Shown: positions 17,540-18,750 of the stretch, one piece after another
How the letters are laid out: each line of letters starts with the position of its first letter
How positions within the stretch are numbered: position 1 is the stretch's first letter
Assembly: GCA_016786765.1 (NCBI GenBank)
Contig: JAEUUZ010000003.1
Coordinates: forward strand, 427,351-491,350
Direction: 5' to 3'
From: Chitinophagales bacterium
GTDB lineage: Bacteria; Bacteroidota; Bacteroidia; Chitinophagales; LD1
Length of the DNA: 64,000 bases
Program-made: the position numbers and the translations under genes
Notes under the pieces: generated by a model
Seen by the model: only the letters and a program-made list of their open reading frames with translations
Told to the model about the DNA's origin: nothing
Database searches by the model: none

Positions 17540-17815
17540 ATGGCAACAAAAGCACCAGCTAAAAAAGCAGCTCCTAAAAAAGCAGCAGCAAAAAAAGCAG
17601 CTCCTAAAAAAGCAGCAGCAAAAAAAGCAGCTCCTAAAAAGGCAGCAGCAAAAAAAGCAGCTCCTAAAAAGGCAGTAGCTAAAAAAGCAGCTCCTAAAAA
17701 AGCAGCGGCTAAAAAAGCAGCTCCTAAAAAAGCAGCGGCTAAAAAAGCAGCTCCTAAAAAGGCAGCAGCAAAAAAAGCGGCTCCTAAGAAAGCTGTAGCT
17801 CAAAAAAAAAGCTAA
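17540..17815 (+). CDS. Alanine/lysine/proline repeat ORF, probably the N-terminal part of a frameshifted HemD
   Basis: A 91-residue ORF: eight residues, eight copies of the decapeptide KAAPKKAAAK (with V substitutions in two), then KKS and stop. Such strongly basic Ala/Lys/Pro tails resemble histone-H1-like DNA- or RNA-binding tails of bacteria. The ORF ends right after a run of nine A residues; a -1 shift there enters the open frame of hemD without a stop, which would give a 403-residue fusion. On its own it may be a small nucleic-acid-binding protein. The start follows the DUF4271 stop by two bases, so it is in the same transcript. Confidence 0.6.
   Translation: MATKAPAKKAAPKKAAAKKAAPKKAAAKKAAPKKAAAKKAAPKKAVAKKAAPKKAAAKKAAPKKAAAKKAAPKKAAAKKAAPKKAVAQKKS
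17564..17803 (+). repeat. Eight tandem 30-base repeats encoding KAAPKKAAAK
   Basis: Eight in-phase 30-base units with a few base changes between copies (GCA/GCG/GCT alanine codons, AAA/AAG lysine codons, two GTA substitutions). The near identity indicates recent expansion and a tendency to copy-number change. Confidence 0.9.
17802..17810 (+). other. Nine-A run: candidate -1 slippage site between the repeat ORF and hemD
   Basis: In the repeat frame the codons read CAA AAA AAA AGC TAA, so the heptamer A AAA AAA lies six bases before the stop. Tandem AAA slippage by -1 gives AAA AAA AAG and continues into the open hemD frame. Alternatives are polymerase slippage on the A run, or a missing A in the assembly. 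Confidence 0.5.
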
Positions 17816-17845
17816 GCAGTTCCTCGCTTTTAAAAAAATCTAACG

Positions 17846-17906
17846 GTAGTAGCAATTCTGTAAACAAAAAGGCTGATGAGAAATCAACCGACAGACTTGC
17901 TACTAC
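17846..17906 (+). repeat. Inverted repeat forming a stem-loop just before the hemD TTG
   Basis: GTAGTAGCAA (17846-17855) is the perfect complement of TTGCTACTAC (17897-17906). Past a 2x2 internal loop, CTGT (17858-17861) can pair with ACAG (17891-17894). It begins 36 bases after the A run and ends one base before the only possible start codon (TTG, 17908) in the hemD frame. Confidence 0.6.
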
Positions 17907-17907
17907 T

Positions 17908-18750
17908 TTGATTTCTACGCCATCCCAAGTACCTCATTCTCCTATTGTAGCGAAAAAACCTGTTCGCGATTATCATAAGCACATTTCACAGGAGCCAAAA
18001 GCTAAACTCAAAAATATTATTGTTGCTCAACCTCAACCCGAGGCGGCAAAATCTCCCTATTATGAATTGGAAAAAAAATTCGGCATTAAGTTTGATTTTA
18101 TTCCGTTCATTAAAGTAGAAGGTGTTTCAACCAAAGATTTCCGAAAACAACGTATAGTGCTCACCGATTTTAGCGGAATTGTATTTACAAGTCGCAATGC
18201 CATCGATCATTTTTTTAGAATGTGTGACGAGTTGCGCGTAAAGATGAGTCAAGAAACGAAGTTTTTCTGCACCTCAGAAGCTATTGCTTTATACCTACAA
18301 AAGTATACGCAATACCGAAAACGCAAAGTGTTCTTTAGTGATGCCGGTATTAATAAGGAGTTGAAAAATTTGATGATTAAACATAAAGAAACTACTAAGT
18401 TTTTATATATCTGTCCGGAGACCCGTAGTCAAGATGAGCTTACATCATTTATGTCGGAGAATGGAATTCAGTTTGTTGAAGCCGTGATGTATAAAACCGT
18501 TCCAAACGATTTAAGCACCATGAAAATTGCCAACTATGATATGTTGATTCTATTCAGTCCAACAGGATTAAGCTCTCTCTTACACAATTTCCCGAAATTT
18601 AAACAAGGGAAAATGAAAATTGGTATTTATGGGAGAACAACAGCAGATGCAGTGATCGATGCAAATCTTTCTATTCATGTAATGGCTCCTTTGAATCATC
18701 ATACCTCCATTACATCAGCATTAGAGAGCTATTTAAAAGACATAAAATAA
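17908..18750 (+). CDS. hemD: Uroporphyrinogen-III synthase, frame open upstream without ATG/GTG
   Basis: Uroporphyrinogen-III synthase closes hydroxymethylbilane into the first cyclic tetrapyrrole of heme synthesis. The HemD core begins near residue 35 (LKNIIVAQPQPE) and shows the two alternating alpha/beta domains, with VFTSRNAIDHFF and the late ILFSPTGLSSLLHNF and IYGRTTADAV segments typical of the family. The frame is open back to a stop at 17785-17787, yet contains no ATG or GTG before the core; the only conventional codon is TTG at 17908, reported here as start. The 34 residues before the core plus the upstream open stretch are not part of normal HemD proteins and join the basic repeat ORF by a -1 shift. 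The true N-terminus is therefore uncertain. Confidence 0.8.
   Translation: MISTPSQVPHSPIVAKKPVRDYHKHISQEPKAKLKNIIVAQPQPEAAKSPYYELEKKFGIKFDFIPFIKVEGVSTKDFRKQRIVLTDFSGIVFTSRNAIDHFFRMCDELRVKMSQETKFFCTSEAIALYLQKYTQYRKRKVFFSDAGINKELKNLMIKHKETTKFLYICPETRSQDELTSFMSENGIQFVEAVMYKTVPNDLSTMKIANYDMLILFSPTGLSSLLHNFPKFKQGKMKIGIYGRTTADAVIDANLSIHVMAPLNHHTSITSALESYLKDIK

Follow-up and report, generated by a model that had tools for sequence, protein, structure and literature searches.

A family-wide -1 frame break at an A run, followed by a conserved RNA hairpin, between a basic tail and a HEM4 domain in uncultured Bacteroidota

The window analysed here is a stretch of 64,000 nt from a Chitinophagales bacterium (GCA_016786765.1, contig JAEUUZ010000003.1, positions 427,351-491,350, forward strand), in which a short basic ORF (the tail ORF), an A run and a frame with a HEM4 domain lie between a gene with a DUF4271 domain and a PorP/SprF gene. 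The features of the locus are listed in Table 1 with positions counted from the first nucleotide of the window. The host family, made up of uncultured Bacteroidota, was represented by 30 genomes from four genera (g1-g4), and the HEM4 gene is present in all 30.

Table 1. Features of the tail/HEM4 locus in the window.
Feature	Positions	Strand	Remarks
Upstream ORF with DUF4271 domain	16509..17537	+	Pfam PF14093, 74.2 bits; stop 2 nt before the ATG of the tail ORF
Lys/Ala/Pro tail ORF, 0 frame, 91 aa	17540..17815	+	MATK start common to the host family
A9 slippage run (candidate)	17802..17810	+	contains A_AAA_AAA phased for a -1 step
0-frame stop TAA directly 3' of the A run	17813..17815	+	stop begins 0-5 nt past the run in 29/29 junctions
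HEM4 (HemD-like) open frame, -1 relative to the tail	17788..18750	+	Pfam match about 18073-18690, 93.4 bits; U3S fold
Conserved RNA hairpin	17845..17907	+	outer stem arms 17845-17861 and 17891-17907
Inner stem-loop GGCUGAU...AUCAACC	17871..17889	+	sequence kept in g1, g3 and g4
TTG start candidate, HEM4 frame	17908..17910	+	not conserved in relatives
Downstream PorP/SprF gene, type IX secretion system	18801..19784	+	PF11751, 192.4 bits

An earlier annotation made from the letters of this DNA (the sequence-only reading) had described a repeat ORF starting at an ATG next to the DUF4271 stop, and its coordinates were verified. The same applies to the frame that it called hemD, said to be open far upstream of the enzyme core with neither ATG nor GTG: this frame opens after a TAA at 17785-17787 and runs to 18750, and TTG 17908 is the sole ATG, GTG or TTG from the A run to the HEM4 core. 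The heptamer that it reported ahead of the tail stop lies at 17803-17809 in the phase CAA AAA AAA AGC TAA, correct for a -1 step, and from the coordinates such a step gives a tail-HEM4 fusion of 90 + 313 = 403 residues, the length that had been proposed. Its comparison of the tail with histone H1 held for the Lys/Ala/Pro repeat composition, which the tail shares with the histone H1-like HC2 family (PF07382), but not for membership of that family, as the tail scores 34.1 bits against a cut-off of 40 and, unlike HC2, is joined to an enzyme-fold domain.

Tail/HEM4 junctions were readable in 29 cases from the 30 host-family genomes, that of G022 via a second contig; the junction of G025, which has NN directly after its A9, was excluded. 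In each of the 29 the HEM4 frame is at -1 relative to the tail ORF, the run consists of nine (24 junctions) or ten As (five junctions), and A_AAA_AAA or A_AAA_AAG is phased for -1. The tail ORF begins with MATK every time and is 24-102 aa long. Tail length takes 19 distinct values and linker length 21 among these junctions, all at -1, so many indels have preserved the relation. Within the codon the run starts at position 3 (17 junctions), 1 (seven) or 2 (five), and is 9-10 nt long in every phase. Elsewhere in the tails (28 loci) there is no second A run of at least 8, with 23 runs of five, 91 of six and 20 of seven. The alanine codon at the junction is GCA in 16/16 g3 loci, against 73 of 197 tail alanine codons, a comparison that ignores kinship and covers 16 of 18 g3 loci, the other two junctions being unreadable. 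The split is a family trait beyond chance, and among the loci inspected it was seen solely in the host family. The first proposal from the window, that tail and HEM4 are linked by shifting -1 on the A run, is supported as a kept trait by 29/29 junctions.

That the window assembly had missed one A, the other explanation offered at the time, is contradicted by the same break in 29/29 readable host-family junctions, whose agreement excludes a missed base in a single assembly. Error in sequencing or assembly at large, or replicative phase variation in a population that holds both states, would suit a homopolymer and has one in-frame database protein, P0018, in its favour; this single sequence comes from a contig of 2,325 bases and could be either a genuine in-frame variant or erroneous. 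Among the best 120 listed of 7,243 database relatives P0018 is, however, the one in-frame tail-HEM4 product and the one that begins with the MATK tail; of ten proteins retrieved with its first 110 residues as query, P0018 alone has the tail. The relative P0002, by comparison, represents 33 sequences on 17 contigs and was given TTG 17908 as its start by the gene caller. Together with the agreement of 29/29 genomes, these records make error or phase variation extremely improbable.

Translation of HEM4 from a start of its own would make the locus two separate genes, one for a small basic tail protein and one whose start is a TTG, GTG or ATG within the linker. Gene callers do pick such starts, P0002 being called from TTG and other relatives from GTG or ATG, and the hairpin loop contains a GTG in L003 and in 16 of the 17 g3 loci counted. 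The 29 host-family loci, however, share no start codon in the HEM4 frame: the window has TTG 17908, L028 has as its sole start a GTG 3' of the hairpin, the TTG positions of g2 vary, and L021 and L068 lack an ATG. In most g3 linkers the basic stretch continues in the HEM4 frame ahead of any start, and the other two frames meet stops. Nor would two genes need to keep the -1 relation or the A run, and we consider this arrangement improbable. When N-termini were compared within the host family, as had been suggested, no hemD with its own ATG beside a separate repeat gene, the arrangement named as incompatible with a fusion, was found. The frames of tail and HEM4 are very probably joined by slippage, of either the polymerase or the ribosome.

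The sequence-only reading had caught the A run and the -1 shift but overlooked a conserved RNA hairpin in the linker. The best inverted repeat is found at the same place in 30/30 host-family loci, with minimum free energies of -20 to -28 kcal/mol. It starts 21-34 nt after the A run in g1, g2 and g4 and 60-90 nt after it in g3, with L015 left out of the spacing as its A run is on another contig. In most g4 loci the minimum-energy fold pairs the inner stem-loop sequence differently. Close to the A run itself, no structure common to all genera was seen in the spacers, which were inspected by eye.

Covariation was evaluated in two sets of rows. The first set, 18 gap-free g3 rows of which 14 are distinct, has 99.0% of its cells paired and five pairs with double changes, a number matched by 4/500 shuffles; the covariation score of 0.171 was reached by 0/500 shuffles, and slid controls scored at most 0.059. 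In 27 model-fitted rows, a set that leans to the structure and from which three g2 loci are absent, nine pairs show double changes and the covariation score is 0.199, with 0/500 shuffles as high for both. The count of further standard pair types was not above shuffles, 497/500 and 121/500 being as high in the two row sets. RNAalifold on a MAFFT alignment of all 30 loci gave five pairs, one with a double change, a low yield that we ascribe to misregistration of the 5' arms between genera. An alignment of model matches (A3) that mixed both strands was left out. Compared with synonymous recoding, at most 2/300 versions fold as well in any of the 30 loci (z -3.2 to -6.5), and the effect is weaker against codon permutation within the region (z -1.1 to -5.8).

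A hairpin model (R1) was built on g3, so that g3 genomes match it by construction, and the matches in g1 and g4 (nine genomes) are independent. It matches 27/30 host-family genomes with E 3.5e-7 or better, at the HEM4 gene only; in G022 the matches lie at two contig ends of this gene. In g2, two genomes (G002 and G005) match weakly at the hairpin (E 0.01-0.02) and G008 has a weak match elsewhere only. Further matches, with E 0.0036 and up and many of them at the hairpin but on the other strand, were discounted. Across 298 sampled genomes of the order, 27 match with E of at most 0.001, all from the host family, and none of the 268 sampled genomes of other families matches. Rfam covariance models gave no match with E up to 1 between 16600 and 19000 of the window. 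An intrinsic terminator or attenuator was considered and set aside as a speculation: many loci have a U-rich sequence 3' of the hairpin, but L004, L025 and L030 have little U there, and the single terminator predicted by a scan of the window is on the minus strand and within chance, with none at the hairpin on the plus strand.

Which machinery slips was assessed from run length, direction and hairpin position. RNA-polymerase slippage at the A run, judged from these sequence features, has about an even chance of being what joins tail and HEM4. It is favoured by the run length being kept in all three codon phases, by the constant GCA at the g3 junctions, by the lack of other runs of at least 8 in the tails, and by the A9/A10 of dnaX in the same genomes, a gene in which such runs act by transcriptional slippage in T. 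thermophilus; a run longer than the heptamer requires suggests that its length is what counts. The conserved run of about nine or more As that transcriptional realignment calls for is present at all 29 junctions (A9 in 24, A10 in five). According to the parts of PMC3711429 drawn on here, a test cassette with nine As gave 40% frameshifting, and at a length of nine selection against A/T runs is seen in many bacteria (PMC1088944). The former source also takes a shift direction that varies among orthologues as a sign of transcriptional slippage and one conserved direction as a sign of ribosomal shifting; the direction at this locus is invariant, 29/29 at -1, and by that yardstick indicates the ribosome.

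Programmed -1 ribosomal frameshifting on A_AAA_AAA or A_AAA_AAG before the stop, aided by the polybasic nascent tail and the hairpin, is a serious possibility, if one that we hold to fall somewhat short of even probability. The single direction and the phased heptamer, both in 29/29 junctions, agree with it, as do the stop directly past the run, the covarying hairpin downstream and a dnaX gene that in the host family shows only 0 and -1 relations. Sliding of ribosomes along successive AAA codons is described in PMC4363877. The hairpin is also easier to explain with ribosomes, because it is not yet transcribed when the polymerase slips.

Known frameshift-stimulating structures lie 5-9 nt downstream of the slip site, however, and the hairpin is 21-34 nt away in g1, g2 and g4 and 60-90 nt away in g3; the g3 run, moreover, exceeds what a heptamer needs.

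The dnaX genes of the same genomes offer a companion case. An A9 or A10 lies between the N- and C-terminal parts in 28/29 host-family loci (L114-L142; G029 had no usable locus and is omitted), and the C-terminal part is in frame in 22/29, at -1 in 7/29 and never at +1. This does not decide between polymerase and ribosome, because 0 and -1 without +1 fits a ribosomal -1 shift equally. With the C-terminal part at -1, dnaX itself is split in seven host-family genomes. In the window it is a minus-strand ORF (44091-45947) with an A10 at 44678-44687 between the two parts.

Whether the HEM4 protein is the uroporphyrinogen-III synthase was examined through structure, pathway and phylogeny. Like HemD, it has the HEM4 domain and the U3S fold: the predicted structure (pLDDT 81.7) has uroporphyrinogen-III synthases as all of its 13 best PDB matches, at modest TM-scores of 0.32-0.52 by query length, the best being 1jr2 (E 9.5e-13, TM 0.52/0.63, rmsd 5.6). 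A sequence search of the PDB with the window protein gave no match. Unlike HemD, it occurs without recognised pathway partners in the window genome, which is 100% complete and in which neither HemC (PF01379) nor HemB (PF00490) gave a match, in searches that matched in 11/14 control genomes. HemC was not matched in 21/30 host-family genomes, 16 of which are at least 90% complete, and 20 of these 21 have a single HEM4. The nine genomes with HemC all have two HEM4 matches, and in 9/9 the second lies at most 0.5 kb from hemC on the same contig.

In a tree of 96 HEM4 rows the host family forms one clade (support 84/89), and 11 second HEM4 copies form a separate clade (support 100/100). The window HEM4 is thus a U3S-fold protein of its own clade, apart from the HEM4 genes adjacent to hemC. 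The enzyme reading fails because the window genome lacks HemB and HemC matches and the genomes with HemC hold a second HEM4 beside it; the window protein probably does not serve the cell as uroporphyrinogen-III synthase. The idea that slippage sets the dose of a tetrapyrrole enzyme does not survive this, with no HemC match in 21/30 genomes and the gene kept in 30/30. As the protein persists where HemB or HemC was not found, the annotation as uroporphyrinogen-III synthase is likely wrong in the host clade. The exception among the genomes with no HemC match, G026 (82% complete), carries a second, HemD-type HEM4 gene (G026:C516, L107).

P. gingivalis PG0202 appears in a 2007 survey (PMC1887533) as 'HemD, putative', specific for Bacteroidetes. 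It is likewise a Bacteroidota HEM4 protein and is assumed to be an orthologue of the window protein; unlike the host-family locus, it is described in the relevant portion of that survey with no mention of a frameshift or basic tail. The adjoining PorP/SprF gene suggests a link of the HEM4 protein to type IX secretion. By tblastn, which is insensitive for this purpose, DUF4271 neighbours were found in 12/31 family loci and 1/58 others, and PorP in 8/31 family loci.

Outside the host family, 56 HEM4 loci were inspected by eye, from 16 named records and from 40 genomes drawn from 64 other-family genomes with a HEM4 match, 19 of them chosen mainly for long open frames; L045 is cut off by a contig end. 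An ATG, GTG or TTG stands in the HEM4 frame ahead of the core in 56/56, and a long basic tail is in frame with HEM4 in 14/56, borderline tails such as L095 being scored as tail-less. Of the hemD start for which relatives were to be checked, none is common to the host family, whereas outside it HEM4 has its own start, with or without an in-frame tail. On the 96-row tree in-frame tails need five changes, and the basic tail is a recurrent partner of the HEM4 protein; these tails, and the in-frame P0018, speak for a joined tail-HEM4 product in the host family. Lys-rich in-frame tails (L050-L061, L065, L067) were gained or lost several times in the order. One genome, G081, carries two window-type HEM4 copies (G081:C127 and G081:C80), which share 42% and 45% identity with the window protein.

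Taking polymerase slippage as the working reading, a mechanism can be proposed. Slippage on the A9 or A10, probably by RNA polymerase adding one A, would yield a single tail-HEM4 fusion, and unslipped transcripts would give the short basic tail only (24-102 aa). Slippage would then set the amount of fusion, because only transcripts with one extra A could yield it. The hairpin, which ribosomes would reach only after the shift, may influence how well the HEM4 part of the mRNA is translated or how stable it is, and the basic tail is predicted to let the HEM4 domain bind nucleic acid or another polyanion. Carried further, the locus could be an expression gate in which polymerase slippage decides for each transcript whether ribosomes pass through the linker and melt the hairpin, or halt before it so that the hairpin silences the remaining mRNA; a secretion-linked, Bacteroidota-specific HEM4 protein would then exist solely as a fusion, born of slippage, to a tail that binds nucleic acid. 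In this full form we think the model unlikely; if true, an A run, an immediate stop and a covarying hairpin would amount to a new kind of expression gate.

To our knowledge, most A9/A10 slippage cases are dnaX and insertion sequences. The E. coli dnaX frameshift site has a downstream hairpin. It resembles the HEM4 locus in this and in its phased A_AAA_AAG/AAA heptamer, and differs in that the HEM4 locus would need the shift for its long product and has the hairpin 21-90 nt away. Transcriptional slippage at A9/A10 runs was shown for T. thermophilus dnaX and is suggested for the two-ORF dnaX of other bacteria (PMC3711429). These genes likewise have a coding A9/A10 and two products of different length, the two-ORF form also at -1; dnaX is, however, a polymerase subunit, whereas the unslipped product of the HEM4 locus would be a short basic tail. 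The HEM4 locus further differs from these two dnaX forms in its covarying hairpin, and no in-frame host-family member was found. An open-access literature search found no published account of the tail/HEM4 shift, and 'uroporphyrinogen' is not mentioned in the main text of PMC3711429 or in the sections of PMC5009743 consulted.

It is unusual for a chromosomal gene to depend, as this one seems to, on slippage for its full-length product throughout a family and to have a conserved RNA element beside it. The locus is a test case in which polymerase and ribosome slippage could be told apart, and dnaX of the same genomes serves as its companion. One further long run was noted in the window, an A11 on the sense strand at 58622-58632 of a minus-strand ORF (57077-59095), which we take to be DsbD-like and which is in frame in the window genome.
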